Shown here: positions 19,018 through 41,782 of the stretch, one piece after another | Numbering within the stretch: position 1 is the first letter of the stretch | Layout of the letters: each line of letters starts with the position of its first letter | NCBI GenBank assembly: GCA_022826905.1 | Contig: JAJDUA010000028.1 | Location: 1-50,982, forward strand | Reading direction: 5' to 3' | DNA: 50,982 nt | Source: Candidatus Dadabacteria bacterium | GTDB taxonomy: Bacteria; Desulfobacterota_D; UBA1144; Nemesobacterales; Nemesobacteraceae | The notes under the pieces: model-generated | Told to the model about the DNA's origin: nothing | Databases searched by the model: none | What the model saw: only the letters and a program-made list of their open reading frames with translations | Translations under genes and position numbers: made by a program

Positions 19018-20868
19018 TCAGACCCTGCTGGTTATATCAAACGGCTTTTTCACTTCCGGCTTGAACTCCCGTGTTCTTGACACCAGTTCGTCAAGTTCCG
19101 CCGAGTCTATAACTTCTTTTTCAAGAAGCAGGGAAGAGAGCTCATGCAGAAGATTAAGATTGTCTTCTAGGAGTTTCATTACCTGGTTGTAGCTTTCATT
19201 CACGATCTTTTTTGTCTCTTGATCGATCTGCACCGCGGTATCTTCGCTGTAATCGCTTTTTCTCGATATTTCCCTGCCCAGGAAAGGCTGCTGTTCGCCT
19301 TTGCCGAAAGTTACCGGCCCCACAACTTCGCTCATTCCCCATTCGCATACCATTTTTCTGGCTATATCGGTGACTCTCTCAAGGTCGTTTGCCGCGCCGC
19401 TGGTTCTTTCGGAGAACACAATTTCTTCGGCGGCCCTGCCTCCCAGAAGCACCTTTATGGTGGAAATAAGGTAACTCCTCGAAAGGGTGTACTTGTCTTC
19501 GAGGGGGAGCTGCTGCGTAACTCCGAGAGCCATTCCTCTCGGTATGATCGTCACCTTGTGTATGGGGTCGGCCTCGGGAGTCAGTTTCGCCACGAGTGCG
19601 TGTCCGGCTTCGTGATAAGCGGTGATTTTCTTCTCTTTTTCGCTTATCAGCATGCTTTTTCTCTCAACCCCCATTGTGACCTTGTCTTTTGCGTATTCAA
19701 AGTCCTCTATGGAGATCTGTTCCTTGTCGTTGCGGGCAGCGTGAAGAACTGACTCGTTGACCAGATTTTCAAGGTCGGCACCAGAAAAACCCGGGGTGGA
19801 CCTGGCTATCACCGAGAGATCAACGTCATCAGCCATCGGGGTGTCTTTTGAATGAACGACCAGGATGGCTTCTCTTCCCCTTACATCCGGCCTCGGGACG
19901 ACAACCTGGCGATCAAACCTCCCGGGCCTGAGAAGCGCCGGGTCAAGCACGTCCGGGCGGTTCGTGGCGGCCATGACTATAATGCCTTCGTTTCCTTCAA
20001 AGCCGTCCATCTCGACCAGAAGCTGGTTAAGGGTCTGCTCCCTTTCGTCGTGGCCTCCTCCGAGTCCCGCTCCCCTGTGTCTTCCCACGGCGTCGAGTTC
20101 GTCAACGAATATTATGCAAGGGGCGTTTTTCTTGGCCTGTATGAACAGATCCCTTACCCTTGAGGCTCCGACTCCGACGAACATCTCCACGAAGTCGCTC
20201 CCGCTTATAATGAAAAACGGCACTCCCGCTTCTCCTGCTATGGCTTTTGCGAGAAGGGTCTTTCCCGTTCCCGGGGGACCGACCAGCAGAACACCCTTTG
20301 GTATTCTTCCTCCAAGCCGGGTGAATTTCTCCGGACTTTTCAGGAATTCCACTATTTCGCTTACTTCCTCTTTTGCCTCCTCAACTCCGGCCACGTCCTT
20401 GAAAGTGATCTTGTTCTGACCTTCGCCGAGCATCCTCGCGCGGTTTTTTCCGAAGCTCATCGCCTTCGTGCCCCCGGCCTGGACCTGCCTCATGAAAAAG
20501 ACCATCAGGGCGACCAGTATGAAAAGCGGACCCCAGTTTATGAGTATCTGGGTAAGCGAACTCTGTTTGCGGCGGGAAAAACTGAACTCCACGCCGCTTT
20601 CCTCGAGCTTTGCGATAAGGAGTTCTCCCGCGGGGCCGGTGGTCGTGAATCCGCGGTCTGCGGGATCGGCGTTTTTAAGCTCTCCCCTTATTATGTTCTC
20701 GCCGAACTCTATCTTGGCTATCCTGTCGTTGTCCAGGTGTTCCAGGAATTTGCTGTAGGATATCTCCGAGTAGACGTTCGCCGAGGTGTTCATGAACTGG
20801 TACACCGCGAACACTCCGACGAATATGGCCACCCAGAGCACAAGGTTTTTAAAAATGTTTGCTGACAT
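19018..20868 (-). CDS. ftsH: ATP-dependent membrane zinc protease FtsH
   Basis: FtsH extracts and degrades membrane and some soluble proteins. The 616-residue product has two membrane helices (about 8-26 and 106-126), Walker A GPPGTGKT (197-204), Walker [10 protein letters not shown], a second region of homology with [20 protein letters not shown], and the zinc site HEAGH (419-423). The length is normal. It heads the folP-cdaA-ybbR-glmM-pdxJ-acpS run and has its own promoter. Confidence 0.97.
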
Positions 20869-25748: not shown

Positions 25749-26618
25749 TCATTTATTGAACATTATTGTTCTGTTTTTGTATATAAGAATTTCTCTGTTG
25801 ATGTGAGACCAGATTGCCTGTGAGAGAACCTGTTTCTCAAGATCCTCTCCCTTCCTCACCAGGTCGTTTACGGAATCGTTGTAGTTTACCCGTATTACAT
25901 CCTGCTCTATTATGGGTCCGGAATCCAAATCCTCGGTTACGTAATGACTCGTCGCTCCAACGATCTTGACGCCTCTTTGGTAGGCATTATGGTAGGGACG
26001 CGCTCCGGGGAAAGCGGGGAGGAAGGAATGGTGAATGTTGATTATCCTGTTTTCGTAGTGTGAGACAAAGTTCTCGCTAAGTATCTGCATGTACCTGGCA
26101 AGCACTACGAAGTCCACTTTATAGTCCGCGAGAAGCTCAAGCTGACTGGCTTCCACTTCCTCTTTGTTATTTTCTACATCCGAGAACACATAAAAATCCA
26201 TGCCGTAGCGGTCAGCAACGGGCTTGAGGTTAAGATGATTGCTTATAATGAGGGGAACTTCCACATTCCACTCCCTGACTCTTAACCTGTATATGATATC
26301 AGAGAGACAATGTGGGAGTTTTGAGACAAAAACCGCCATGCGCAGCACTTTCCCAGTGAAGAATACGTCAAATTTTATATCGAATTCTGAAGCTACTTCC
26401 TCTCGGAAACGTTCGGAGAATTCCTCTTTGGGAATGGAGAATTTCTCCATGTCCCACTTTACGCGGACAAATGTGACCATGTCGTCCATGTCCATGCAGT
26501 GCTGCATTTCATATATGTTACCGCCATACTTGGAGATGAAGTCGATTATTGCGCGGAGAAGACCCGGGCGGTCGGGAGAATGGGTAAGCAGTACTGCTTG
26601 TTCAGAGCTTTCTGGCAT
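25749..26618 (-). CDS. purU: Formyltetrahydrofolate deformylase
   Basis: PurU splits 10-formyltetrahydrofolate into formate and tetrahydrofolate. The protein (289 residues from the ATG at 26618) opens with an ACT domain (LLTHSPDRPGLLRAIIDF). It ends with a formyltransferase domain carrying NIHHSFLPAFPGARPYH and the catalytic Asp/His region GATSHYVTEDLDSGPI. A TTG at 26630 is in frame. Before the island arrived, its upstream neighbour was the SDR gene now at 38633. Confidence 0.93.
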   Translation of the reverse strand: MPESSEQAVLLTHSPDRPGLLRAIIDFISKYGGNIYEMQHCMDMDDMVTFVRVKWDMEKFSIPKEEFSERFREEVASEFDIKFDVFFTGKVLRMAVFVSKLPHCLSDIIYRLRVREWNVEVPLIISNHLNLKPVADRYGMDFYVFSDVENNKEEVEASQLELLADYKVDFVVLARYMQILSENFVSHYENRIINIHHSFLPAFPGARPYHNAYQRGVKIVGATSHYVTEDLDSGPIIEQDVIRVNYNDSVNDLVRKGEDLEKQVLSQAIWSHINREILIYKNRTIMFNK

Positions 26619-26692
26619 GATTAGGAGCAAGCTTCCTGTTTAGTTAAGCTGTCATTCTACCTTAAACAACCCCCTAAAGTCCAATAAGCTAG

Positions 26693-26832
26693 AACAGACT
26701 TCGCAGTAATCCTCCGTCAACCTGGATAGTTGTCCCGGTCATGTAGCTTGCTTTCTCGGAAGCAAGAAAGCAGGCTAGGGCGGCCAATTCTTCAGGAGTT
26801 CCTATTCTTTGCAGGGGAATGTCCTTTTCCAT
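26693..26832 (-). repeat. Left-edge copy of the SDR gene 3' end (att-like direct repeat)
   Basis: These 140 bp match 38637-38776 without gaps, with 11 differences by my count (about 92%). Read on the minus strand they encode the last 47 codons of the dehydrogenase (from [11 protein letters not shown] to GGLLRSLF) and an in-frame TAG at 26689. Only one residue differs from the intact gene. Joined to 38777-39424 this copy would make a whole SDR gene, so it is probably the original 3' end, displaced by the island. Confidence 0.9.
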
Positions 26833-26962: not shown

Positions 26963-28425
26963 ATGCTGAGAATGAGTAGTGAAACAACTCCTCCAAAACT
27001 GTTTATTTCCTATAGTTGGACAACTCCAGACCACGAGGCTTGGGTTATCCGGTTTGCGACAGAACTGCGTGAGTCTGGCATTGATGTCATTCTTGACAAG
27101 TGGGACTTGAAAGAGGGACACGATGGTTACGCTTTTATGGAAAAGATGGTTGCCGACCCGAAAATCAACAAGGTCTTACTGGTTTGCGACAAAGGATATG
27201 TTGACAAAGCAGACGGTCGAAGTGGTGGTGTGGGAACGGAGACACAGATTATCACGCCTGAGATTTACAATAAACAGGCTCAAGACAAATTTGTTGCTGT
27301 CGTAACGGAACGCGACGAAAACGGAAGACCTTATATTCCGGTGTTCTATGGGTCCCGGATATTCATAGACCTTAGTGATCTTGGAACCTATTCTGAGAAC
27401 TTCGACCAACTTCTCCGTTGGGTATTTGATCAACCATTGCACAGAAAGCCACCGATAGGCAAAAAGCCGACATTTTTGTCGGAAGAGGATAGAGGAGTTG
27501 AATTGGCGACATCTTCTCCATTTAGACGTGCAGTGGATGCGATACAAAATGGCCGTGACCACGCAACGCTGTTGGTAGTTGAGTATTTCGAGAAATTAAC
27601 CGAAGAACTTGAGAAACTTCGTATTGAACAGGACACAGAAGACATATTCGACGATTTAGTAGTCCGTAGCATCGAATTATTCCTTCCTTATAGAAACGAA
27701 GCTATAAAAATACTTCTTTTACTTTCTCGCGGTAAGAATGCGGATGAAATAATCCAAATTGTTCACAGATTCTTGGAAAGTCTCATACCGTACATGGATA
27801 GACCAAAGAATGTCACCCGATGGAGAGAAGATGGTCTCGACAATTTTAAATTTATCGTCCACGAATTGTATCTATATGCTGTGGCTTGCTTTATAAAAAA
27901 TGAGAAATTTGATTCTGCTGCGGGCCTCATGAGCAACGATTACTATCTATCCGACAGTTTCACAGATTACTACGGTTCAGCCATGATTACATTCTCCGTG
28001 TTTAGGCAGAATTTGCTATCTCTGCAAGAACGCAATAACCGTCTGGAGTTGAATCGGTTGTCGTTGCATGCCGATCTCCTTCTACAAAGATCGGAGAAAT
28101 CAGGGATTGAATTTCGGGACCTTATGCAGGCAGAGACCTGGTTTTGTTCTTGAGAGGGCACTTGGATTATCCTGACGTTCGGTCTCGTTGGTGGTGGCCA
28201 GATACACTTCTCTACGCGGGACGACAATCTAGACCATTCGAGATATTCGCTAGATCGCAGTCGAAGAGATACTTTAATAGGATGAAATGTCTGCTAGGAA
28301 TCAATAATATTACGATTCTTCTGAATAAGATAAATACAAACCCACAACTGTATTTACCCCGATTGGATTTTCCAATTTATCTTGAGCATTTGCTTGGATA
28401 CGAGCAGATTGCCACTAGAGAATGA
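26963..28425 (+). pseudogene. SEFIR-domain defence protein, frameshifted near 28128
   Basis: The first ~140 residues are a SEFIR domain (TIR-like): KLFISYSW at the start, then ESGIDVILDKWDLKEGHDGYAFME and the RSGGVGTETQIIT motif. In bacteria SEFIR/TIR domains act as NAD-consuming or signalling modules in anti-phage systems. A helical middle follows. The first frame ends at 28153 shortly after LMQAETW, but frame +2 continues at once with LVLFLRGHLDYPD, RWWWPDTLLYA and PFEIFARSQSKRYFNRMKCLLGI, an end expected for this protein. Dropping one GA from CAGAGACC near 28128 would restore a 486-residue protein. It may be a true inactivation or a read error. An ATG at 26972 is an alternative start. Confidence 0.8.
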
Positions 28426-28470
28426 TCAAAGATTGGGAAATAGAAGTATCTACAGTTCATAGCGAGAACA

Positions 28471-31400
28471 GTGGACAAAAAGATAAAGAAGGAACATGGT
28501 TTCAAGGGGTCTGGTATAACAAGAACTGCCTTTGAATATCAAGACCTGATAGGTATTGAGTTTTTGATAAAGTTCTTCCGCGACCCTGATAAATATCATT
28601 GGATTGAATTAGACTCTGAAAACCCCGATGTGGGATATCTAGATGATGTTGTTGTGGCTCGTCAGGATGGGACATATGAGGTCATCCAAGTAAAATTTAC
28701 GGTTGATCCAAATGAACATTTCTTGGATTGGGATTGGTTATTAAAGAGAAAGCCAGAAGGGACATCTCCGCTTGCAAAGTGGGCCGAGTCTCTAAATCGC
28801 GTGGCGTCTTTAGGCCCGATTCGCTCCGCAAAACTTAGAACTAATCGAAAGCCCGGCGGGGAATTTAAACAAGCTCTAAAGAATGATCAGATTGACTTGA
28901 ACAAACTTAGCAAAACTGTAAAGAAGCAGGTTGAAGATGAGTTAGGTGGACCAGAACCGGCATCAAGTTTCTTTAGTAGCTTTCATTTCTCACATTCTGA
29001 ACTATTAATTGATCAATTGGAAAACAAATTGAAAGCTTTTGTCGTTCCAACTGATACTGACGACAGTGGGTGGTTTCTCCTTCGCAATCAAGTACGACAA
29101 TGGGCGACGAGGAAACTGAACCCAGAACCGGACGGAAAGATTAGACATCAGCATCTCGTACAAATAATCACAAAGAAACGGGCTCAGCCTATCCCGCAAA
29201 ATTTTCGGATACCCGATGTTTATTGCCAGCCAAGCAGCCAATTCCATGCCGATTTTTTTGAGCGCATAAAAGTATCGGAGAGCCAAATATCCGTACTTTG
29301 GGGTACGCCCGGTCGAGGAAAAAGTACATATCTGAGTTTCTTCATTGAGGAACTGCATCGAATCGAGATTCCTACGGTGAGACATCACTATTTCATGTCG
29401 TTGGATGATACTTCAAGCAATCGTTTTTCATTTTTTGACATTGCTACATCCCTGATGGACCAAATGGTGGCGAGTTGCCCAGAGGCGGTGAGAGGATTGC
29501 AAGATGGAAGCGAGCAACTCCGAAATTGGGTGGAAGCCTGCGGAAATTATTTTGAAAAGAAGAAAAAACCATTTGTCGTTGTTGTTGACGGACTTGACCA
29601 TGTTTGGCGAGAGCAGGGAAATATTGTTCAAATGGAACAGCTGTTTAATTACCTGCTTCCCGTTCCTCTTAACGTACATTTGGTTGTTGGTACACAGAAA
29701 GTTTCTGAAAACCAACTTCCCCATCGCCTCATCCAGCATGCGGAAAATAACGATTGGATTGAAATCCCACCTATGGATGAGCAGGCAGTTCATAAATGGG
29801 TGGTAGAGCAGCGTAAAGCAGGTCGCCTCCGGTTGCCGGACAATTTTCAGCTTTTCCGACCTGAACGCAAACAGGAATTAATAGACAACATATCTCTTGC
29901 GTTTTTTGAAATTTCTCAGGGGCACCCCCTACATCTGATCTATTCTTTTGAGGTTCTTGCAAGAAGAGGAGCGATATTTACCCCGGAAGAAATCCACTCG
30001 CTTCCGACATGTCCGGAAGGCGATATTCGTAAATACTATAAGGGGCTTTGGAGTCGGTTATCCGCAAAGGCCAAACAAATAATCCACCTAATCGCGGGTT
30101 CGGATTTTCACTGGCCATGGTCTGGGATAATGCAATGTGTTGGTCCGGTTGAAGAAGTTAGCTTCCTGCTAGAGCATAGAAAAAGTGGTGCGGTGCCGTT
30201 TCACGGAAGCATAATTGCATATGCCAGGGAGCACACAGATCATGAAGAGACTTTCCGAGCGATTTTGCCCAAGGTGATTGATTGGCTTGAGCAGGATGCT
30301 CCCGAATATTACCGATGGGGCTGGTTGTGGCTTATGCGTGCAAAGCGAGGTGACTACGAAGATTTGTTAAACAAAACTACGAGAGAGTGGGTTCTTGAGT
30401 CGCTTGCCGAAGGCTGGCCTGATAAACAAATCGTAACAATTCTTAATGAGGCGGAACGGAAGGCTTTTGCTGACCTAGATTACGCGAAAACAGTTGAACT
30501 GCGTTCTTTAAAGGAGCGCCTCTATAACGGTTTTGAAATAGAGTATCAGACCAATAGCGGTTCTGAGTTTCTGGAATGCGCAATTCGATCCAGCTGTAAT
30601 ACTCAGCGCATTATTAACCTTGCAGACAGTGTAGTATCTCTTGCGGATAAGCATGTCGTTGCTCTTGCCTGCTCAACGGCTGATGAGATGAACGATGTCC
30701 GAGATGAATGCGTTGAAGAACTTCGCCGACGCATAGATTTGTGGATTAGTTTACGACATAGGTCAGGGAATGACTTTCTTGGTCTTGTAAGGTGCTTCTT
30801 TGACGCTTTGTCTTTGGCTTCGGAGATCGATACAGAAAGCCTTTTGAAATTTGTCAGCAGATTTAATAATCCGAAAAAGATTTTTGGCTTTCTTATGAAA
30901 GCCCTCTCGAAGGAAAGGCGCCTGAACGAATTGATCTCAATAGCCAAAGCAAGACGTTTAAAATCGAAGAAGGCACTTTCGTTGCTCCCGCTTGTGCAGG
31001 ATGCCATAGTACGTGTCGCCTCGGCCGAGGGAGTTTGCATCGCCTCAAGATATGCTCCGACTAAAACACCCGTTAGTCCGTTGATGGCTTGTTGGAGGCA
31101 TTATCATCAAGTAGTTAAGTCAGTGCCAATCGCCGTTCCCGATGTTCCCGGGGACATTATCCGTGAATACTACTCACATGAAGACAGCCAAGATTTAGAA
31201 CAATTTTTTTATAGTTTTTTCTTTTACACCTTTGCGAACAACCTCAGGAATAATGATGACAATTCACTCTGGCCTACTGGAGAGCGCCCAGGAAGTTCAG
31301 GGTGGATAGATCGTCCACTGAAACTGCTCAAAGAGATGGCACAGAATATAGCAACCGGTAATGTCGTCATATCGTTTTCGACTCCTTACCACGTAGCGAA

Positions 31401-32871
31401 GATCTTGGAGCCTGTCGCGCATAAATTCTCCGACGCAAGTTACGCACAGTATAGAGCTTTTAAATCTGCACTTCTCAAAATTGCTATTGATCTTCATTAC
31501 GTCAATAGTCCTATTGGAAGGATGTCTTTCATAGGGGTAAGAGAACTGTCTGCGGCAAGGTCGTCTGTTCACTGGAACGAGGAGATGTGGATATCGATTC
31601 AGGTGAAAAATCAACTAGCTATTCTTGATCCGGAAACAGCAAGATGGACGCTAAAGTCCGCTATTAAGAAACAGGATTTAGCTGTAACGCGATTTGACAT
31701 GCGAGCAGACAAATGGGTTGAACTTGCTCAATTCGCTTTGCTGTATGATCTTCAAGATTCTAGGCGGCTTGTTTCAAGAGCTGCTAACTGCATAATAGGA
31801 TACGGATGGCGTAAGGATTTCTGGCTAGGGGAAATCTTGGATTCGGTAGCGGCAGTACATGACTCAGGAGCGAAAGACGGATTTTCATGGCTTCAGACAC
31901 TCGTTCCCATCGTCGGAGAGGTAACAAAATTCACCGACGGGGACGAGACCGACCACATAAGGTCGAAACTCATCAATGTTGTGGCTAAAGTATGTCCCAA
32001 TCGACTTCCTCAATTATATGCCTATCACATTGCTAACGACGAGTTTTGGTATGCAGAAGAAACTCTTTCAGCCTATTGCAAGCTCATTGACTTTACGGAT
32101 TCAACCAGCGTGGCCTTGGCTCATACTTTTATTGAGGAACAGGACATCTTGAATCTTCGATCACTTCGGGAGGCTGGCAATGTAGCCGTAGGTGCGCTGG
32201 AAAATGAGCAAATCCATTTTATAGGCGGCATAGAACCCAAACAGTCTTTACCCGAAAACAAAGACGAAGACTTGGATTGGGCTGGCACCCCGCCGGATGT
32301 AAGTAAAATCAAGCCTTCACAATTCCGTATTCTGATTAAAAAAGCTTCTAGCCATTCTCTTGGTTATAAACTCGAAAGGAAAGTTCTAAAAGATTGGCTC
32401 GATCATTGGAAAAGCAAGGGCAAGGGCTTAGAAGCGATTGCATCAATCCGTTCATATTTTAATGAGCAAGAGAATCCGCATGCAGCCGAATCCTTACTTG
32501 ATGAGGTCTTCCAAGTCAGTTTAGAGTTGGAGGGTAAAACGACGGCTTACGAATGGCTGGTTCTGGCACACATTCATCGCCACGGATGGAGCTCCTACTG
32601 GGGTCCGGAGGACGAAACGCTCCGGCGGATTGGCTGGGCCGCCGAATACTATCGGAATAAATGGGTCGATTATATTCTAGATACGTCGAAACCCCCTCGG
32701 TACCGAGAACGCAGAAAAGATAGTTTCAGTATCGGCATAAAATATCTTGTCAAATTTTTATTGCTTGTTGGTGAAAAGGAAATTGCCGTTGATTTCGTGG
32801 ATATGTGCGTACGTATCGTTGTCGAAGAGGTTTCAGATCAACCAATACCGGAGTGTCCATGGTTTCGCTAG
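28471..32871 (+). CDS. Giant STAND NTPase with N-terminal Cap4/DUF4297-like nuclease (Avs-like)
   Basis: The protein has 1466 residues with a GTG start. Residues 15-80 look like a Cap4/DUF4297 PD-(D/E)XK nuclease: TAFEYQDLIGIEFL, an acidic DD at 58-59, and IQVK at 72-75. A P-loop NTPase follows, with Walker A GTPGRGKS (278-285) and a STAND-style Walker B VVVVDGLDHV (Asp 373). From about residue 600 the protein is rich in helices with no recognisable domain, as expected for the repeat-type sensor of STAND proteins. Nuclease-STAND proteins of the Avs group recognise a phage protein, oligomerise and cut DNA. Which trigger it senses is unknown. It lies 45 bp after the SEFIR gene and overlaps the next gene. 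Confidence 0.75.
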   Translation: MDKKIKKEHGFKGSGITRTAFEYQDLIGIEFLIKFFRDPDKYHWIELDSENPDVGYLDDVVVARQDGTYEVIQVKFTVDPNEHFLDWDWLLKRKPEGTSPLAKWAESLNRVASLGPIRSAKLRTNRKPGGEFKQALKNDQIDLNKLSKTVKKQVEDELGGPEPASSFFSSFHFSHSELLIDQLENKLKAFVVPTDTDDSGWFLLRNQVRQWATRKLNPEPDGKIRHQHLVQIITKKRAQPIPQNFRIPDVYCQPSSQFHADFFERIKVSESQISVLWGTPGRGKSTYLSFFIEELHRIEIPTVRHHYFMSLDDTSSNRFSFFDIATSLMDQMVASCPEAVRGLQDGSEQLRNWVEACGNYFEKKKKPFVVVVDGLDHVWREQGNIVQMEQLFNYLLPVPLNVHLVVGTQKVSENQLPHRLIQHAENNDWIEIPPMDEQAVHKWVVEQRKAGRLRLPDNFQLFRPERKQELIDNISLAFFEISQGHPLHLIYSFEVLARRGAIFTPEEIHSLPTCPEGDIRKYYKGLWSRLSAKAKQIIHLIAGSDFHWPWSGIMQCVGPVEEVSFLLEHRKSGAVPFHGSIIAYAREHTDHEETFRAILPKVIDWLEQDAPEYYRWGWLWLMRAKRGDYEDLLNKTTREWVLESLAEGWPDKQIVTILNEAERKAFADLDYAKTVELRSLKERLYNGFEIEYQTNSGSEFLECAIRSSCNTQRIINLADSVVSLADKHVVALACSTADEMNDVRDECVEELRRRIDLWISLRHRSGNDFLGLVRCFFDALSLASEIDTESLLKFVSRFNNPKKIFGFLMKALSKERRLNELISIAKARRLKSKKALSLLPLVQDAIVRVASAEGVCIASRYAPTKTPVSPLMACWRHYHQVVKSVPIAVPDVPGDIIREYYSHEDSQDLEQFFYSFFFYTFANNLRNNDDNSLWPTGERPGSSGWIDRPLKLLKEMAQNIATGNVVISFSTPYHVAKILEPVAHKFSDASYAQYRAFKSALLKIAIDLHYVNSPIGRMSFIGVRELSAARSSVHWNEEMWISIQVKNQLAILDPETARWTLKSAIKKQDLAVTRFDMRADKWVELAQFALLYDLQDSRRLVSRAANCIIGYGWRKDFWLGEILDSVAAVHDSGAKDGFSWLQTLVPIVGEVTKFTDGDETDHIRSKLINVVAKVCPNRLPQLYAYHIANDEFWYAEETLSAYCKLIDFTDSTSVALAHTFIEEQDILNLRSLREAGNVAVGALENEQIHFIGGIEPKQSLPENKDEDLDWAGTPPDVSKIKPSQFRILIKKASSHSLGYKLERKVLKDWLDHWKSKGKGLEAIASIRSYFNEQENPHAAESLLDEVFQVSLELEGKTTAYEWLVLAHIHRHGWSSYWGPEDETLRRIGWAAEYYRNKWVDYILDTSKPPRYRERRKDSFSIGIKYLVKFLLLVGEKEIAVDFVDMCVRIVVEEVSDQPIPECPWFR

Positions 32872-34313
32872 TTACAACCGAATCAACTGTAAAGATGCTG
32901 ATCGAACGTCTCAACTGGCCGGTTCGTTTGACCAGGTGGCAAACAGCTCGAGAACTCGGCGTGTTGCTTTCGTCCAAGGATTATTCAAACCTTGCCACAG
33001 AAGTTTATCTTGATTGGCTTTCAAGCAGACAATTTGAAAGTGAAATTACCTCTGCTTTGGTTGTTCTCTTTTGCACTCCTGAAAGTAGTTTGCCATCATC
33101 TCAGGCTGTTGTAGATAGTATTTCCAAGCCCTCAATATTAGCGGATCTAATGCTTCAAGCTATATATGGACCAATACAAATGAAAAGGGAGTGGGAAAAT
33201 TTGCATTCCCCCGAAGTGTCTCGACTGTATAAACCAGAAACTTATTTTCTAAATCATAGATCGGTCTATGTACCGCCACTACTCGGCAACGAATTCGAGA
33301 AACTTGAAAAGGAAACCGGCTTTCCATTCATATGCCAATGGGCCTTTGAGTGGCATCAACTAATGGAGTCAACGAAAGCTCCGTATTCCAGTCATCCATA
33401 TTATTTTGTTGAACCATCTCTTACTCGTTCCGGTATTTTTGGTCAGTTCAGTCAGCGCCAATGCGATGTTTACCAATCTGCGTATCTCAGGGCATTAGCC
33501 TGTGCAGTCGATTGCTGCTATCTTCCTGAAGATTTAGCTGCTGGAGTGGCACTGCATGCTCTTCCGCTTAATCGCGGGTTGGGGGAATTGAATATAGCGG
33601 AACGTCCCGTTTGGCTTTCTGATATTCCTGAGAAATGCATTAACCCTGAAGAATCACTTGAACCTCTAGCCCGAAATCTGATTAAACCGGGGTTAGAGCA
33701 AGAGGATATGCGTCCTGTGGTACTTAAAACCCCCATGTCAGCAGATGTAGCAGAGTTCTCGAATGTGTCCATCCGCGCGATTTTGGCAAGCACGGACTTT
33801 GAATACAGAGAGCATTGCTCTTTGCGTGGTGGCTTGATCTTACCGCTTCCGGATGGGGTAACGATAAAAGGCATTCTTGGCAAGAAAAATATATCAAATT
33901 TCACCTCATCAGGCATTGCTGGTGCTGCGGCTCCGCTTTGTCTTGATCTTTTCCCCGTGCCGATGGGACTCTGGCTCGTTGATTATTTGCGGTTTGGGAT
34001 TCCACTGCCAGCTCCATATGTTTTTGAGAATGATGTAGAAGTTGCTTGTAGCAGTAACTGTATTGAGGTCATAAGCAGCGGTAAAAAAGTTGCCTCTTGG
34101 AAAGTCTGGCATGATCGCTGGACTCCGTTACACGCAAAAGACGGAGCAACGCGCTGCGGTATGCTTACCGAGTTGCGAGAAGACGAGATTAGTAAAGCAC
34201 AAGACAGACATGGTATGGCACTTGGTTGGCTGGTTGAGTTGAATGTTTGGAAACAAAAAGAGGAGCACGAGCCTTTTGAACTGAGCAGGCGCCGGGAATT
34301 CTTTTTTGACTAA
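32859..34313 (+). CDS. Unrecognised 484-residue protein coupled to the STAND gene
   Basis: The start ATG at 32859 lies inside the end of the STAND gene (13-bp overlap) with GGAG 6 bp before it, which argues for coupled translation and a joint function. The frame is open from 32805, but that part is a shadow. The first ~100 residues look like helical repeats of HEAT type (NWPVRLTRWQTARELGVLL). The rest is a mixed globular protein with no motif I know. Notable stretches are WAFEWHQLMEST, LHALPLNRGLGELNIAERPVWL and a late DLFPVPMGLWLVDYLRFGIPLP. There is no signal peptide. It could be an adaptor, inhibitor or second effector. Confidence 0.65.
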   Translation: MVSLVTTESTVKMLIERLNWPVRLTRWQTARELGVLLSSKDYSNLATEVYLDWLSSRQFESEITSALVVLFCTPESSLPSSQAVVDSISKPSILADLMLQAIYGPIQMKREWENLHSPEVSRLYKPETYFLNHRSVYVPPLLGNEFEKLEKETGFPFICQWAFEWHQLMESTKAPYSSHPYYFVEPSLTRSGIFGQFSQRQCDVYQSAYLRALACAVDCCYLPEDLAAGVALHALPLNRGLGELNIAERPVWLSDIPEKCINPEESLEPLARNLIKPGLEQEDMRPVVLKTPMSADVAEFSNVSIRAILASTDFEYREHCSLRGGLILPLPDGVTIKGILGKKNISNFTSSGIAGAAAPLCLDLFPVPMGLWLVDYLRFGIPLPAPYVFENDVEVACSSNCIEVISSGKKVASWKVWHDRWTPLHAKDGATRCGMLTELREDEISKAQDRHGMALGWLVELNVWKQKEEHEPFELSRRREFFFD

Positions 34314-34360: not shown

Positions 34361-34453
34361 CCAACTGGGTAGATTGCTTTCTAGTAAGCAAAGAAGCAGG
34401 CTAGGGTGGTTAATCCTCCAAGGCTTCATTTTTTCCAAGAGGATATTTTTATC
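34361..34453 (-). repeat. Decayed third copy of the SDR 3' end
   Basis: Read on the minus strand this stretch lines up codon by codon with the same part of the SDR gene. DKNILLEK stands for EKDIPLQR, and TLACFFAY-stop-KAIY stands for [13 protein letters not shown]. The exact core shared with the other copies is GCAGGCTAGGG. At least two stop codons show that it is dead. It lies between the convergent left and right modules of the island and points the same way as the other two copies. Confidence 0.72.
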
Positions 34454-34571: not shown

Positions 34572-35696
34572 TTATGGGCTATTGTGCCAATCTTCGAATT
34601 CGAGTTGGTTGCGAAGAAACAATTGGTATTGCTCCGTCTCGTCTGTGCTTGGTTTTGCTGATTTGTGCTCACCGCTAGAACTGAGAAAATCATCCAATTC
34701 CCTCTTGAGAATTACAGGGATCTTTAATTGGTGATTCCATCGCAGACGTGCTTCATCAGCGGCTTCTCCGTGGCCCCCTATTGAAAGTTTTGTAGAATCG
34801 TCCCTTCGAGTAAGTGATGAATAAAATCTTTGAACAGCATATTCCATGCTACCAACCTTGTAGAAATAGAATCGTCCGGCCCTACGAGGTTCCCAATCTG
34901 GTGCAACCATTGATTTCTTGTTGTCGTCAAAATTGACGCAGCGAACCTGAGCTAATCGGGTCTGATGATAATAGAGTTCGTAATACCACGCTCTATTGTT
35001 GTCTCTACAAATCTCCCCGCGGGTCCATTCTTCATGGCAAGCAATTTGATCTTCTGCGCTAGCAACTCTTAATGTAAATTCTGGAAAGATTTTGTGATGG
35101 AAATTCATATTGCATCCATTTTCAGTTATGAGTGACCATGCGTCAGGTTTACTCAAATAACGTATGGCCCTTTCATAAGGTGTCATATCCAGGCCAAAAC
35201 GTTCACGCCACATTCGTTCAATTTCATGCGGTTGGGCAGAATCATTTACTGGGGTGTTTGTGTCACAGACGCGTGTATATATATGATGAGCACGAACTTT
35301 CTTGTATTTCTTAACAAGATAGTAAGGTTTGTATGCAGTATCCGCAATTACTAAAACATCAAGTAATGTTTGATTAACTGTGATTTCTTTTAAGTAAAAA
35401 TCAGGGAATCTGGATTGAAAAAAATTGTTAGCATTATCTCGAAACAAACCGGCTAATTCTGCTTGGGTTGTTCGTCTTGGGTCTTCATTTATTGGATACA
35501 AAGAGAAATCCTTATCATCAACGCCAAATATTAAAAATCGGTCACCAGTATGTTTGGCATTTGCTAGGCACAAGACATCGTGAATAAGATCTGATTTGTC
35601 CTTGTGATGTTCACGTTTGAAATCCCAATAGGTGCCTTCAGCTTTTCTATCGATAAGGGCTGAAATGGTTGTAAGTAGGCTGTCTTGTTTAGTCAT
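34572..35696 (-). CDS. AlbA_2/Schlafen-like putative DNA-binding protein
   Basis: The N-terminal ~150 residues of this 374-residue protein match the AlbA_2 (Schlafen) pattern: EGTYWDFKREHHKDKSDLIHDVLCLAN, then FLIFGVDDKDF and the DVLVIADTAYKPYYL strand. Such domains bind nucleic acid and in some proteins cut RNA or tRNA. The C-terminal 220 residues are unrecognised. It is 16 bp downstream of the MmeI-like gene on the same strand, so it is probably part of that restriction module as an accessory or back-up effector. Confidence 0.75.
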   Translation of the reverse strand: MTKQDSLLTTISALIDRKAEGTYWDFKREHHKDKSDLIHDVLCLANAKHTGDRFLIFGVDDKDFSLYPINEDPRRTTQAELAGLFRDNANNFFQSRFPDFYLKEITVNQTLLDVLVIADTAYKPYYLVKKYKKVRAHHIYTRVCDTNTPVNDSAQPHEIERMWRERFGLDMTPYERAIRYLSKPDAWSLITENGCNMNFHHKIFPEFTLRVASAEDQIACHEEWTRGEICRDNNRAWYYELYYHQTRLAQVRCVNFDDNKKSMVAPDWEPRRAGRFYFYKVGSMEYAVQRFYSSLTRRDDSTKLSIGGHGEAADEARLRWNHQLKIPVILKRELDDFLSSSGEHKSAKPSTDETEQYQLFLRNQLEFEDWHNSP

Positions 35697-35712
35697 GATT
35701 ACACCTTTTTGC

Positions 35713-38532
35713 TTAGAGGTTTCTATTTCTTCGCCGCTTTGGAGTTCTTCCCTTTATTTCAGCATCTAAAGGTGCGTGCATTTCCTCATACAGCATGAAC
35801 AGATGCTCTATGCGCTTGCGCTCTGAAGAGAAGCCAGTGCGGCGATATAACCTGTCTACGGCTCGGTCAAGAGCTTGATGTGCACGACGAAGACTTGGTG
35901 GCATTAAGTCGGGGTCGTAGAGATCGGCCAGTGTCGAATCCGGGTGAGCAGCACGAGCATCAAGTATGGCTTGCGCAAGTCGTTCCAGTCTCGACATATT
36001 CACACCTTTTGGGGGCATAGGGAACGTGTTGTAGACAAGACCTATAGAATAGCGGTAGTCACTTTTTAACCTTCCACCAACATGACGAAGCCAAGCCATG
36101 TGCATAGACGAAGTAAGAAGTGCGAAATCGGCAAGAGTGGCGTTTTCTAGAACGCGAACGAGGTTGCTTGGAATAACTGGCGGTTCCAGCCAGCCAATTG
36201 GAATATATTCCCGTCTTTCTGAGCTGACTTCGGGAATGACCAAGAAAGGGGTTGTTGGGATAGTCGTAAATGCAAATTCAGTTGGAAACTGGGCAAGTTT
36301 ACGAGTCACTTCCCGCTTGCTTTCAAGACGAGACCCACGGACGGCCTTGATACGCTCCCGAACTTTTGGCAGGTCTACCAATATGTTTGGTTCCGTATCA
36401 TGCAAAACCAAAATCCAACGATCACCGCCTTGCAAGTATTCACGGGCTCCGACAAAAGGGTGTAGGAAAGGTTCAGCATCGGGTTCTTCTGCTAGAAACT
36501 GGACCCGTTCCTCATCTGTGAAAATGTAGTGGCCCCCATCAATGGGTTGCGAACCATAACGCAACGGAGTCATTCCGTTGATTGGTTTATTCTCCTCGTA
36601 AACCGTTATATAAGGGTTAGAAAGTCCGGTAGCATCAAACAGATAGGGTGACAGTACTTTGTGCCGGGTTTCCTCCGGTTCGCCATTAATGTCAGGATAG
36701 CTGAACAGGTACTTTTCCGATTTGGCTACTTCCCGTCCATCCAATCCGATAATTATCACATGGACATGTGCTTTACCATCTGCATCAGAACCCCAAGCGA
36801 ATGTGCGGTGAGCAAAACTGATTTCAAGCTTGAGGTGGTCAAACAGTAAGGGCCAGAGTTGTGCCACCTGCTTGCCCTGAGTAATAGAATTCGTTGCCAC
36901 GAATCCTATTCGCGCTGAAGTGTTCTGAACATATTTTCCAGCTTTGATGAACCAAGCAGTGACATAGTCCAGACTACCACTACTTCCGTCTAGATTAGCT
37001 ATTCTACGAACTTGGGTGCGCTGATCAATTGTTTGAAATTTTGCGCCCACGAACGGTGGATTGCCGAATACATAGTCGCAGTGCTCTGGGGATAGAAGGG
37101 AAGCCCAGTCAGTTTCCAAAGCATCTGCATGTTGTATATTGGGTGATGTTTCAAGCGGGATGCGAGCATAAGTCTCGCCGAATTCCAAGCTCAATCGGTT
37201 ATTCATAATATGGTCCATCATCCAAAGCGCGGTTTCGGCGATCCTGACCGGAAATTCGCCAAGTTCAATACCGTAGAACTGGTTCACATTTACTAAAGAG
37301 AGTATTTGCATATAGAATTCTCTCTGTCGTGATAACTTGGGTTCCGTTGTATGAATTTCACGTGTACGGAGTTCGCGGATTACCTCCATTTCAAGCAAAC
37401 GAATTTCCCGGTAAGCGATGATCAGGAAGTTTCCGCAACCGCAGGCCGGATCAAAGAAGGTAAGACTGCCGAGCTTTTTCTGGAATTCCTCAAGCCGATT
37501 TCTTCGGTTACTTTTCAGTATCTTGATCTTTTCGAACTCCGCGCGGAGTTCATCAAGAAAGAGCGGTTCAATAACCTTGAGAATATTTTTCTCGGTAGTA
37601 TAGTGTGCGCCTTGGGCTCGACGTTCCGCCGGTTCCATGACCGACTGGAAAAGCGCACCGAAAATCGCTGGTGATATCTTCGACCAGTCAAAATAACAAG
37701 CCTCAAGAAGTCGCTCGCGCATTACCCTGTTAAAAGAGGGGATAAGTAGGGGTTCATGGAAAAGGTCGCCGTTTATATAGGAAAAGTTTGCGAGGTCTTC
37801 ATCAAGAGTCAAAGATCGTTTGTTAACCTGAGTATCCAGAACCTGAAAAAGCTGGGTAAGCATAGGTCCGAGATCGGAACCATCCTCTCTGGTACGCGTT
37901 TCAATGAATTCAAGGAATATATCTCGTGGCTCGAAAATACCTGTGTCATCGGCAAACAGGCAGAAAACGATTCTCACTAGGAAGCATTCCAGATCGTGGC
38001 CACGGTACCCTGCCTCGTCAAGTGCGTCATACAACCGCCCAACAAGTTTTGCCGCCTCTATGTTTGCTGGGTCTTGATCGCGAAAAGTCTTGCGCTCCAC
38101 GCCGATTATGAATCCAAATTTCTCTATGTGAGCTTGCAGATCAGGCAGTTTGAAAGAAATCTTTTCTCTTTTTTCAAGATCGCGAAGTAGAAAGTTTTGA
38201 AAGTCGCTTACGAGTATATAACGCGGTTGGTCTTTTTTAGGCAGAGCATCACAGTAATCTCCTGCCTGCTCCTGGGCAGGTTTTAGATCACGACCGGCGC
38301 TTTTTTGTTCAACTAACAACATTCCCGGCCAGAAAAGGTCTATGAAACCCGAACTGTTGTCGAGCTTTCGCACATGGTATTCATAACGTGCGACAGAACG
38401 ACTCTTAACACCAAATATTTCAAAAAAGTCGTTGTAGAAACTCTGAGTTTGTCCTTTTTCATAGGCGGCGTCTGCCCATTCGCGGGAAAACTCGGCGGCA
38501 CGGCTTCGAATTTCATTCCAAGATAAGCGCAT
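35713..38532 (-). CDS. MmeI-like type IIL restriction-modification enzyme
   Basis: The 939-residue single-chain enzyme has the layout of MmeI. The N-terminal nuclease contains FIDLFWPGMLLVEQKSAGRD (D...EQK near residues 64-80). A helical spacer follows, then the N6-adenine methylase with FDPACGCGNFLIIAY (SAM motif I), YGIELGEFPVRIAETALW and the catalytic VFGNPPFVG (NPPF). A target-recognition domain takes up the last ~300 residues. MmeI-type enzymes methylate one strand of their site and cut about 20 bases away. All motifs look intact, so it should be active. The recognition site cannot be read from sequence by eye. Confidence 0.88.
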   Translation of the reverse strand: MRLSWNEIRSRAAEFSREWADAAYEKGQTQSFYNDFFEIFGVKSRSVARYEYHVRKLDNSSGFIDLFWPGMLLVEQKSAGRDLKPAQEQAGDYCDALPKKDQPRYILVSDFQNFLLRDLEKREKISFKLPDLQAHIEKFGFIIGVERKTFRDQDPANIEAAKLVGRLYDALDEAGYRGHDLECFLVRIVFCLFADDTGIFEPRDIFLEFIETRTREDGSDLGPMLTQLFQVLDTQVNKRSLTLDEDLANFSYINGDLFHEPLLIPSFNRVMRERLLEACYFDWSKISPAIFGALFQSVMEPAERRAQGAHYTTEKNILKVIEPLFLDELRAEFEKIKILKSNRRNRLEEFQKKLGSLTFFDPACGCGNFLIIAYREIRLLEMEVIRELRTREIHTTEPKLSRQREFYMQILSLVNVNQFYGIELGEFPVRIAETALWMMDHIMNNRLSLEFGETYARIPLETSPNIQHADALETDWASLLSPEHCDYVFGNPPFVGAKFQTIDQRTQVRRIANLDGSSGSLDYVTAWFIKAGKYVQNTSARIGFVATNSITQGKQVAQLWPLLFDHLKLEISFAHRTFAWGSDADGKAHVHVIIIGLDGREVAKSEKYLFSYPDINGEPEETRHKVLSPYLFDATGLSNPYITVYEENKPINGMTPLRYGSQPIDGGHYIFTDEERVQFLAEEPDAEPFLHPFVGAREYLQGGDRWILVLHDTEPNILVDLPKVRERIKAVRGSRLESKREVTRKLAQFPTEFAFTTIPTTPFLVIPEVSSERREYIPIGWLEPPVIPSNLVRVLENATLADFALLTSSMHMAWLRHVGGRLKSDYRYSIGLVYNTFPMPPKGVNMSRLERLAQAILDARAAHPDSTLADLYDPDLMPPSLRRAHQALDRAVDRLYRRTGFSSERKRIEHLFMLYEEMHAPLDAEIKGRTPKRRRNRNL

Positions 38533-38632: not shown

Positions 38633-39424
38633 TCAAAACAGTCCTCGCAACAATCCTCCATCAACCTGGATAGTAGTTCCGGTCATGTAGCTTGCTTTCT
38701 CGGAAGCAAGAAAGCAGGCTAGGGCGGCCAGTTCTTCAGGAGTTCCTATTCTTTGCAGGGGAATATCTTTCTCCATCTCCTCTATGGCTTTTTCGTATTT
38801 AATGTTTGCCTGCGCGGCCCTTTTTTCCGCGAGCGCCTTTATCCTGTCCGTGTAGATCCTTCCGGGACAGATGTTGTTTACCAAGATGTTGTACTCTGCG
38901 AGTTCGTTTGAAAGAGTCTTCGAGAAACCTATAAGCCCGGCGCGGGAAGTGTTCGAAAGTATCAGTCCATCTATCGGTTGCTTAACAGCTATTGAGGTTA
39001 TGTTCACTATTCTTCCCCAGCTTTTCTGTTTCATTAGAGGAACTATTTTCTTCGCCAGATAAATGCCGCTTAGAAGGTTGAGTTCCAAGGCGCTTTGCCA
39101 GTCGGGTGATTCAAAGTCTTCGAAGAAGCCGAAAGGGGGCCCTCCGGCGTTGTTTATGAGAATATCAATTCCGCCAAGTGTTTTTACCGTTTCTTCTATT
39201 ACACGGTCGACCTGTTCTTTATTAGTTACATCGGCTGTGGAGGCAAGAACATCCACCGGAAAACGAGTTCTTATTTCGGAAGCCGTACGCTCTATTTCCT
39301 CTTTTGAACGGGAAAATATGGAGAGATTTACTCCTTCATCCGCAAGAGCGAAGGCTATCGCCTTTCCGATTCCCTTGCTGGACGCCGCCACCAGGGCGAC
39401 CTTTCCCTTTATACCGAGATCCAT
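38633..39424 (-). CDS. SDR-family oxidoreductase lacking the usual YxxxK
   Basis: This 263-residue Rossmann protein resembles 3-oxoacyl-ACP reductases. It shows the cofactor loop AASSKGIGKA (AAS in place of TGG), NNAGGPP, and the catalytic-Ser region NITSIAV. Where YxxxK is expected it reads LILSNTSRAGLIGFSK, so both Tyr and Lys are missing. A subgroup of SDR proteins with LSN-R at this place exists, so the change is probably a family trait and not decay. Its last 47 codons are duplicated at 26693-26832 and serve as the boundary of the defence island. It is 3 bp downstream of the fmdB-like gene. Confidence 0.88.
   Translation of the reverse strand: MDLGIKGKVALVAASSKGIGKAIAFALADEGVNLSIFSRSKEEIERTASEIRTRFPVDVLASTADVTNKEQVDRVIEETVKTLGGIDILINNAGGPPFGFFEDFESPDWQSALELNLLSGIYLAKKIVPLMKQKSWGRIVNITSIAVKQPIDGLILSNTSRAGLIGFSKTLSNELAEYNILVNNICPGRIYTDRIKALAEKRAAQANIKYEKAIEEMEKDIPLQRIGTPEELAALACFLASEKASYMTGTTIQVDGGLLRGLF
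38637..38776 (-). repeat. Right-edge direct repeat within SDR 3' end (att-like)
   Basis: This is the partner of 26693-26832. To the left of 38637 and to the right of 26832 the two copies lose all similarity, which fixes the island borders to within a few bases. Most of the 11 differences fall in third codon positions, as if this 3' end came from a diverged strain together with the island. Confidence 0.9.
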
Positions 39425-39988: not shown

Positions 39989-40552
39989 TTATTTGATCAA
40001 ACCAATTTCCTTGAGAAATCTAAGCAGACCACTGTTATTTCGAGTTGCACGTTCAAGATCAGGAATATCAAATTTTGAAAGACATTCCGACGCGGTTATC
40101 GGCTTGTTGTAGTCCTTCCAATGACGTTTGAGTTCCTGTTCTGCTAAGTTTGATGTTGGGGGTTTTAAATTCTCACATCTGGGAAAATGGTTTAACAGAA
40201 GTGCTTCCAAACATGGGTTTGACCATACTGGTATAAATTCAGACCGCTCAATTATTCTGTCAGCCTTTTGTGTCTTCAGTAAATTTTCAGCACGCAGGTC
40301 TGCATCAAGGAATACCGCTTTCTTCCAGAATTTCCTACTATGTTTTTGTTCCCGTTTTATCGCGGTCTTCTCCGCCTGTTCCAAAATGGCTAAATGGTTT
40401 CCTCCTCGGCACAGTTTTATATCAAAATGGAGATCAAGTGTGGATTGAGCATTAGCGATTTGATGAAGAAAAGAAACGTAACCGCGTTCGCTCTCTCCTT
40501 CGCAGGCAACGAAGACTGCCTTTCGTGGTTTTCGAGACGGACGCCGCGCCAT
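39989..40552 (-). CDS. RloB-like protein (TOPRIM-type, AbiL second component)
   Basis: This 187-residue protein has a basic start (RRPSRKPRKAVFVACEGESERGYVSFL). The Glu there and the Asp pair in KKAVFLDADLRAEN are the metal residues expected of the RloB/TOPRIM-like fold. Known partners are RloA-type ATPases, and the ATPase gene lies 3 bp upstream. Pairs of this kind (RloAB, AbiLi/AbiLii) are phage-defence or abortive-infection modules. It is the likely effector. Confidence 0.78.
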   Translation of the reverse strand: MARRPSRKPRKAVFVACEGESERGYVSFLHQIANAQSTLDLHFDIKLCRGGNHLAILEQAEKTAIKREQKHSRKFWKKAVFLDADLRAENLLKTQKADRIIERSEFIPVWSNPCLEALLLNHFPRCENLKPPTSNLAEQELKRHWKDYNKPITASECLSKFDIPDLERATRNNSGLLRFLKEIGLIK

Positions 40553-40555
40553 TTG

Positions 40556-41782
40556 TCAACCAATCACGGGCAAAGCGCCGTATTGGCCGCCCATGTATTT
40601 ACGATAGAAATTGTCATCTCGTCTCACCGATTTAATATCATTAAGAGAAAAAATTTCCGTCTTTCCATCATTGTCTTTTTCGCATAATACGATTTCATCC
40701 TTCTGGAGTTCTTCAAGCAATGATGGACTTTGGCAACTCATCCAGAGTTGTGCATTGCGAGTATTACGCCGGGGGTCGCGAAACCAGCGTAGAATTTCTT
40801 CCATAATTGTCGGATGTATTGAAGCATCAAGTTCGTCAATAATTGCTATACCACCTTTGACTAACGCATGGGCAAGAATCGGAAAATATCTGATAAATTG
40901 TTGTGTGCCATTGCTCTCAAGTTCGAATGGCATCCCCAGATTTAGACCGTTATGGTAAAGCTTCATTATATTTTTTCCATTTTCTGTTGATGATACATCT
41001 AGGCTACGAATACCGATATCAATACGCCTAATCTCCTGATTGACCTGTTCCAGAAGTTCATTTTGGTCTGCATAATTCTGGAAAAGATCTTGATCGGATA
41101 TCTTTTGTTTTGTGACTAGAATATTTGACTTCATTAACAGTGCATGGTTGGAAAACTCAGTTGAAAATTCATGGTTGAATTGAACCATAGTGGATATAAC
41201 ACTGGCGTTTGGTTTCAGAATTCTAACAAGAAAGTCTTCTCCATAACCAAGCCCGAATCTCTTTGAAACTTTTACCTTGCCGTTCTCAAATCGTTCAAAA
41301 ATTCTTGTCTTTCTAGCAGTTGCTGATGGCCAGAAGAAGAGACTTTCATAACTGACAGTCTTTTTTCCGTTGTTTGAAATTTCAAGTTCGTAGAGGTGTC
41401 TGCTGTACTTTCTGTCGAAGCGCTCTGTATCTGTTCCCAGAGATTCCGGGGCGGAGAACCAGAGTCTCAATCTCGTGGGTCTAGATACGTGTTCATTGTC
41501 AATATAAGGCCAGAAGGGAAATGAATGCAAATCGTCACCAGGTTGAGTGTGAAAACTGTGTTTCAGGAACCAGATGATGAAAGTCAAGGCTCGGAGAATG
41601 TTTGATTTCCCAGATCCGTTGGCTCCAAAGATGGCAATAACTTTGGAAACCCGTTCCCCTGAGTCTGGAAAACTTTCGATAAGATGATCGGCTTTCGCTG
41701 GTGCATTTCCTGGTGCGACTAAATCAAGCACTTGGCGATCTTGAATAGAATAAAAGTTTTCGACTTCTAATTTGGTAATCAT
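40556..41782 (-). CDS. RloA/AbiLi-like AAA ATPase
   Basis: This 408-residue SMC/ABC-type ATPase of the AAA_15/AAA_21 group starts ITKLEVENFYSIQDRQ. Its Walker A is FGANGSGKSN (residues ~52-61), a signature-like region lies near 285, Walker B is GIAIIDELDASIH, and a His-switch-like WMSCQSPSL follows. With the RloB-like gene 3 bp downstream it forms a two-gene defence module. It lies just outside the SDR-bounded island. Confidence 0.82.
   Translation of the reverse strand: MITKLEVENFYSIQDRQVLDLVAPGNAPAKADHLIESFPDSGERVSKVIAIFGANGSGKSNILRALTFIIWFLKHSFHTQPGDDLHSFPFWPYIDNEHVSRPTRLRLWFSAPESLGTDTERFDRKYSRHLYELEISNNGKKTVSYESLFFWPSATARKTRIFERFENGKVKVSKRFGLGYGEDFLVRILKPNASVISTMVQFNHEFSTEFSNHALLMKSNILVTKQKISDQDLFQNYADQNELLEQVNQEIRRIDIGIRSLDVSSTENGKNIMKLYHNGLNLGMPFELESNGTQQFIRYFPILAHALVKGGIAIIDELDASIHPTIMEEILRWFRDPRRNTRNAQLWMSCQSPSLLEELQKDEIVLCEKDNDGKTEIFSLNDIKSVRRDDNFYRKYMGGQYGALPVIG

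Follow-up and report, generated by a model that had tools for sequence, protein, structure and literature searches.

The window analyzed here, a stretch of 50,982 nucleotides (nt), is a contig (JAJDUA010000028.1, labeled C66) of a Candidatus Dadabacteria genome (assembly GCA_022826905.1; 1.78 Mb in 69 contigs, 93% complete) that carries three neighboring plus-strand genes at 26963–34313. These genes, described in a preliminary description made from the sequence alone, are real, being open reading frames (ORFs) of 396, 1466, and 484 amino acids (aa). The results described below make it likely that the second and third genes, ORF2 and ORF3, encode the two coupled chains of a single Avs3-type nuclease that senses phages, and that the first, a SEFIR gene, is a separate and probably broken gene of the same island. 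The three genes and their parts are as follows.

About 26963–28425, plus strand: bSEFIR-like gene (ORF1), covering the ORFs 26963–28153 and 28144–28425; not judged to be a member of the ORF2/ORF3 pair.
28471–32871, plus strand: ORF2, 1466 aa, GTG start; Cap4-like nuclease, STAND/NACHT NTPase, and helical repeat.
ORF2 residues 16–187 (extent of the match), N-terminal: Cap4-like PD-(D/E)xK nuclease with D59, Q73, and K75.
ORF2 residues about 270–560: STAND/NACHT-type NTPase; Walker A GTPGRGKST, Walker B region VVVVDGLDHVWR.
ORF2 residues about 560–1466: long α-helical repeat.
32859–34313, plus strand: ORF3, 484 aa counted from the ATG (502 aa in the mechanical ORF), overlapping ORF2 by 13 nt.
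32850–32861, plus strand: start region of ORF3 within the end of ORF2; GGAG at 32850–32853, five bases before the ATG at 32859–32861.
ORF3 residues about 7–275 and about 284–483: α-helical part and β-rich part, respectively.

ORF2 is indeed a Cap4-type nuclease–STAND protein of the Avs kind, as had been proposed, on the evidence of its Pfam and PADLOC domains and of its fold match to Avs3. It matches NTPases of the NPHP3_N/NACHT type in Pfam and, weakly, Cap4_nuclease; the latter model is matched by 38 of 45 family members at E ≤ 0.01, and Q24, D59, Q73, and K75 are invariant in all 45, the window included. A profile of the Cap4 domain found one chain in the PDB (9n00_A, ‘AAA family ATPase’, E 0.0011), whereas PDB sequence searches returned no match with ORF2 alone and one short PPR match with the NTPase plus sensor. 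When the two chains are divided into eight segments, the mean identity is 0.395 in the NTPase versus 0.185 in each of the most variable segments, ORF2 731–980 and ORF3 291–484, a variability that fits recognition surfaces without proving them.

ORF3 of the window has no family match in Pfam, PADLOC, or NCBIfam (E ≤ 1) or in PHROGs (E ≤ 0.1). Among 69 members of its family, HEAT_2 is matched by three (best E 0.039) and the VexE model by one (E 2.9e-5), and neither a PDB sequence search with the family nor a tblastn search of phages with ORF3 (E ≤ 0.01) gave a match. Within the window's phylum (57 genomes) the protein is confined to the window's own genome, and when the class that includes the genome of the relative L013 (289 genomes) was searched with the ORF3 profile, only that genome and one marginal match of 58 residues were found. 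Public records annotate the ORF3 relatives of L004, L005, and L009 as ‘multidrug DMT transporter permease’, which the present data do not support.

Relatives of the STAND protein were collected from genome contigs, which were scanned with an alignment of eight STAND proteins; the NTPase motifs were required, and the best 80 of the 123 relatives obtained were kept. The same family in viral contigs yielded one relative (L092, fused), and among 72,556 plasmid records tblastn detected ORF2 relatives in 20 and ORF3 relatives in 16, nine of the latter being examined. By the labels of the public records, the relatives belong to several bacterial phyla, and many are metagenome bins; a contig labeled Micrarchaeota (L082) is very near a Chloroflexi genome (L052) on the STAND tree, and contamination of its bin seems likely. 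When the ORF3 domain was placed via six-frame ORFs of the 80 genome loci, it was found directly after the STAND part in 73, as a separate gene in 51 and fused in 22 (the part is interrupted in L017, L021, L033, and L077, which are counted among the carriers). Five of the seven loci lacking it stop at the contig end (L015, L023, L026, L049, and L084), and in the other two (L058 and L065) the gene is truncated and has unrelated neighbors. In the plasmid loci, the second gene is separate in L003, L004, L005, L009, and L011, preceded in L004 by a STAND fragment of only 341 aa, whereas in L006, L007, and L010 the domain is inside one gene annotated at 1842–1922 aa and in L008 in a shorter gene of 643 aa. 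STAND–ORF3 is thus a recurrent two-part unit, and the split between ORF2 and ORF3 is no accident, because 51 of the 80 relatives are split at the same junction; these, together with the 22 fused genes, led us to reject the idea that breakage of one original gene produced ORF3 as an artefact. The overlap of the partner gene with the nuclease–STAND gene, noted in the preliminary description, also stands.

At the junction, the starts of the second gene in 55 split loci (51 genome and 4 plasmid loci), counted from the base after the stop of the first gene and sought between −25 and about +12, fall at −4 (17), −13 (15), −1 (11), and −10 (5), more rarely at −8 (2), +2 (2), −20 (2), and −7 (1). Alignment A3 of the relatives comprised 68 of the 74 loci among L012–L092 with the ORF3 domain (L017, L021, L033, L053, L077, and L081 were omitted as incomplete or oddly aligned), and alignment A4 comprised 70 of 71 candidate rows (without L021). 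Pairs of relatives that are more similar in the STAND part tend to be more similar in the ORF3 part as well (Spearman 0.73 for pairwise identities, 65 rows, window included), and therefore the pair travels together. On a FastTree phylogeny of 71 STAND rows, of which 70 were labeled (48 split, 22 fused, L092 included) and for which the program warns of long branches, the split or fused state changed at least nine times, six of these changes being forced by starred branches, as compared with a shuffled mean of 19.0. No third conserved neighbor emerged, in that none of the 18 largest clusters among 1047 flanking ORFs (≥100 aa, within 8 kb; L003–L092) occurred in more than eight loci; neighbors at equal distance were seen in a few loci only, apparently near relatives (L005/L064/L079 and L009/L077).

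The predicted structures connect both chains with Avs3. The AlphaFold model of ORF2 residues 270–1466 (71-row alignment; mean pLDDT 90.6, pTM 0.89) consists of the NTPase followed by the long helical repeat, and that of ORF3 (69 rows; pLDDT 92.3, pTM 0.91) of helices to about residue 275 and then a β-rich part. The two models were searched separately with Foldseek against 350,542 PDB chains. For ORF3, only two of the 498 matches at E ≤ 10 reached E ≤ 0.001, both being Avs3 chains of 8DGC (3.8e-7 and 8.9e-7; TM-score by query 0.44), the structure of Avs3 (AVAST type 3) bound to the terminase of phage PhiV-1, and the next entry followed at E 0.061. For ORF2 270–1466, 12 matches reached E ≤ 0.001, headed by 8dgc_B and 8dgc_A (5.4e-12 and 5.8e-12; TM-scores by query 0.49 and 0.46), with CED-4/CED-3 third (E 1.8e-4).

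Referring to Avs3, which carries a Cap4-type nuclease effector, it is likely that ORF2 and ORF3 function as one sensor nuclease. Avs3 is the best PDB fold match for the STAND NTPase and helical repeat as well as for the ORF3 part, and the combined length of the two chains, 1950 aa, compares with 2004–2028 residues in the 8DGC chains; the N-terminal Cap4-type nuclease is likewise shared. A difference is that Avs3 is one polypeptide of about 2000 residues, whereas the window has two genes; the fused form is found in 22 of the 73 relatives. Going beyond the computed domains, conserved catalytic residues, pairing, and fold, we infer a mechanism whose general logic follows the work on Avs3 and Avs4. 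The two chains would form a 1:1 complex in which ORF3 makes the sensor complete, and the ORF2 repeat together with ORF3 would bind a phage protein; by analogy with Avs3, the large terminase subunit is the most likely one. Binding would induce ATP-dependent oligomerization of the STAND domain, which in turn may join the Cap4 domains for cleavage of double-strand DNA, so that phage growth would be stopped.

Several points weigh against this assignment. The Cap4 domain of the window scores 22.8 bits, under the Pfam cut-off of 26.2, and the PADLOC Avs3a model is without a match to ORF2 (E ≤ 1) and is matched by only one of the 69 ORF3-family members (E 0.01). The structural alignments to Avs3 have just 12% identity, with TM-scores by query of 0.44–0.49 and root-mean-square deviations of 9.8–24.7, and because of this low identity and these large deviations the likeness is to be read as a shared fold, not close kinship. 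The placement of ORF3 on the C-terminal end of Avs3 is suggested by the gene order and the fused relatives, not by the Foldseek ranges, and the relatives counted are the best 80 of 123, from a scan demanding NTPase motifs. Finally, copies of the 3′ end of an SDR gene lie on either side of the SEFIR–STAND–ORF3 block but were not found within it; the three genes may thus have arrived in the window's genome together, these repeat bounds being the sole observation in favor of this.

Other known systems are more distant. In AVAST type 1, according to one report, an MBL-fold nuclease gene lies upstream and the STAND protein bears a trypsin-like domain, the system being a phage-protein sensor activated by terminase (PMC12799240). 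The NTPase region of ORF2 (residues 256–537) does match Avs1b in PADLOC (54.6 bits), but its NCBIfam Avs1b score of 38.4 bits lies below the cut-off of 1500, the upstream gene of the window is SEFIR, and the N-terminus of ORF2 is Cap4-like. With the Cap4 effectors of CBASS and with Lamassu LmuA, the Cap4-type nuclease is common (PADLOC SAVED_PDDEXK 2.2e-11, LmuA 3.5e-10); however, the nuclease part alone matches, its fusion partner in ORF2 is a STAND NTPase, and Pfam gave no match to a SAVED domain. No description of the STAND–ORF3 pair or its parts was found in the literature searched, whose coverage mostly excluded subscription papers.

Among the other explanations, one rather unlikely alternative is that ORF3 regulates, as an adaptor or inhibitor in its own right, a STAND sensor that is complete by itself, which resembles the role of adaptor or control suggested for the third protein in the preliminary description. 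ORF3 is a separate gene with its own start in 51 of the 73 relatives, and a Shine–Dalgarno-like motif precedes 26 of the 55 chosen starts as compared with 8.7% at random positions, an excess that is overstated because the choice of starts favored such motifs. The domain is, however, fused to the STAND part in the remaining 22, with repeated changes between the two states, and the best structural match of ORF3 by itself is Avs3, whose solved chains have about 2000 residues. On these grounds, the terminal part of the sensor is the better reading of ORF3.

It is also unlikely that the SEFIR protein and the STAND pair cooperate in a lineage-specific three-part system with two effectors under one sensor. 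The SEFIR domain attributed to the first gene is present in ORF1 (Pfam SEFIR, 64 bits), and residues 4–392 of its 396 match the PADLOC model bSEFIR (PDLC03957, 373.8 bits), a term that had no match in the literature searched. The end of the gene does not lie at 28153, because the reading frame changes near 28135: residues 4–382 of a SEFIR protein of Pseudomonas luteola (479 aa; H37/L093) align in one frame (52%) and residues 382–478 in a different one (40%), the second piece reaching 28419 inside the ORF that ends at 28425. Thus ORF1 shares the domain and the family match with bSEFIR, whereas a full-length match in a single open frame is lacking, the last approximately 97 residues being in another ORF; the disruption would be due either to a mutation or to an assembly error. 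The three genes are on the same strand, the gap to ORF2 is only 45 nt because the true end of the SEFIR gene is 28425, and the trio shares the repeat bounds mentioned above. Against these points, no SEFIR ORF was found in the 80 genome loci, nine plasmid loci, or one viral locus of the STAND family (phmmer with ORF1, E ≤ 0.001, ORFs ≥40 aa), among which, in the 81 loci L012–L092, at least 5 kb was available upstream in 63 and downstream in 65, so that the proposed trio recurs in none. Counted over whole genomes, 5 of the 76 STAND carriers searched encode a SEFIR protein (2 of 50 plus 3 of 26, mostly domain-only matches; the genomes of four of the 80 loci are left out of this count), close to the 4 of 57 in the window's phylum with the window's own counted, and SEFIR relatives are found in 157 plasmid records. 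SEFIR as a partner of the STAND pair, and hence its proposed membership of the set, was rejected on these counts, and its adjacency to STAND is best read as that of two tenants of one island.

Very unlikely is a −1 ribosomal frameshift that would make the split apparent only and yield one fused chain: the second frame is the −1 frame of the first in 51 of the 55 split loci, but the offsets −1, −4, −10, and −13 share that frame in any case, the open frames overlap by just about 7–13 nt in some loci (L071 and L032), 4 of the 55 are in another frame, and no common slippery site was seen in the junctions by eye, no formal scan having been made, so that a programmed frameshift as the rule was rejected.

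The surroundings of the three genes are summarized as follows.

25749–26630: purU, left flank of the island.
26693–26832: repeat of the SDR 3′ end (copy A), with 92% identity to 38637–38776 over 140 nt; left edge of the island.
34369–34453: repeat of the SDR 3′ end (copy B), with 74% identity over 87 alignment columns; it separates ORF3 from the module that follows.
34572–38532: two adjacent genes, one with SLFN_AlbA_2 (264 bits to the PADLOC candidate PDC-S50) and one for an MmeI-type IIG restriction-methylation enzyme (1169.5 bits).
38633–39424: intact SDR gene; its 3′ end, 38637–38776, is the right edge of the inserted region.

The 12 kb between purU and the SDR gene thus hold the SEFIR gene, the STAND pair, the SLFN_AlbA_2 gene, and the MmeI-type IIG enzyme. 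The G + C content of the SEFIR gene, ORF2, and ORF3 is 0.43–0.45 versus 0.51 in the left flank; no integrase was found among the five inserted genes by the families scanned, and no tRNA in the window. Copy B scored 51.8 bits, whereas local blastn on 200 versions of the island shuffled by single bases gave no more than 26.5 bits. The same site is empty in five of 11 other genomes of the genus, the flanking genes being 62–70 bp apart (G015, G019, G020, G025, and G026), whereas it holds a single 935-aa gene in G021, by eye a relative of the window's MmeI-type enzyme. In G024, and in G022 to the extent that its contigs cover the site, further genes are present along with an additional copy of the SDR 3′ end; G016, G017, G018, and G023 are without a close copy of one or both of purU and SDR. 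The repeat is matched in 10 of 13 genomes, with more than one copy only in G000, G022, and G024, and its pattern had no match in viral contigs. The purU–SDR junction is an insertion hotspot in the window's genus. At the position of the SEFIR–STAND–ORF3 block, G024 has two plus-strand genes (L096 1661–3724; 263 and 418 aa), which we take to resemble the Gp37/Gp68-like and TcmP-like families, and G022 has a relative of the second, 418-aa gene (L104 156–1412). Just past the SDR gene lie RloB-like (AbiLii) and AbiLi-like genes at 39989–41782, and away from the island a 616-aa AAA protein (19018–20868) matches the IetA model with 130 bits.

The damaged bSEFIR-type gene in a defense island is an ordinary part of the locus, and the two-chain sensor nuclease is the interesting one. 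None of the family libraries searched has a model devoted to its second chain, even though the relatives are widespread. A more speculative proposal, which we consider improbable, is that the Avs3-like sensor is a two-subunit receptor in which the fast-changing, β-rich ORF3 carries much of the recognition surface; if so, the nuclease–STAND chain would be retargetable by exchange of the small subunit, somewhat like an antibody with its light chain, and the repeated fission and fusion would represent gain and loss of this exchange, although the covariation of the STAND and ORF3 parts speaks against it. The system can be tested in a homologue from E. coli (WP_128452452.1, annotated as one gene of 1922 aa), DNA 99.7–99.8% identical to the fused Enterobacter gene of L054 being present in 4 of 5426 genomes. 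Altogether, the findings suggest that the sensor end of an Avs3-like protein can exist as a protein of its own, having been split and joined many times at the same place, and this natural split gives a handle on the role of the ORF3 part, as the chains may be separated, and mixed between relatives, without cutting a protein of 2000 residues.

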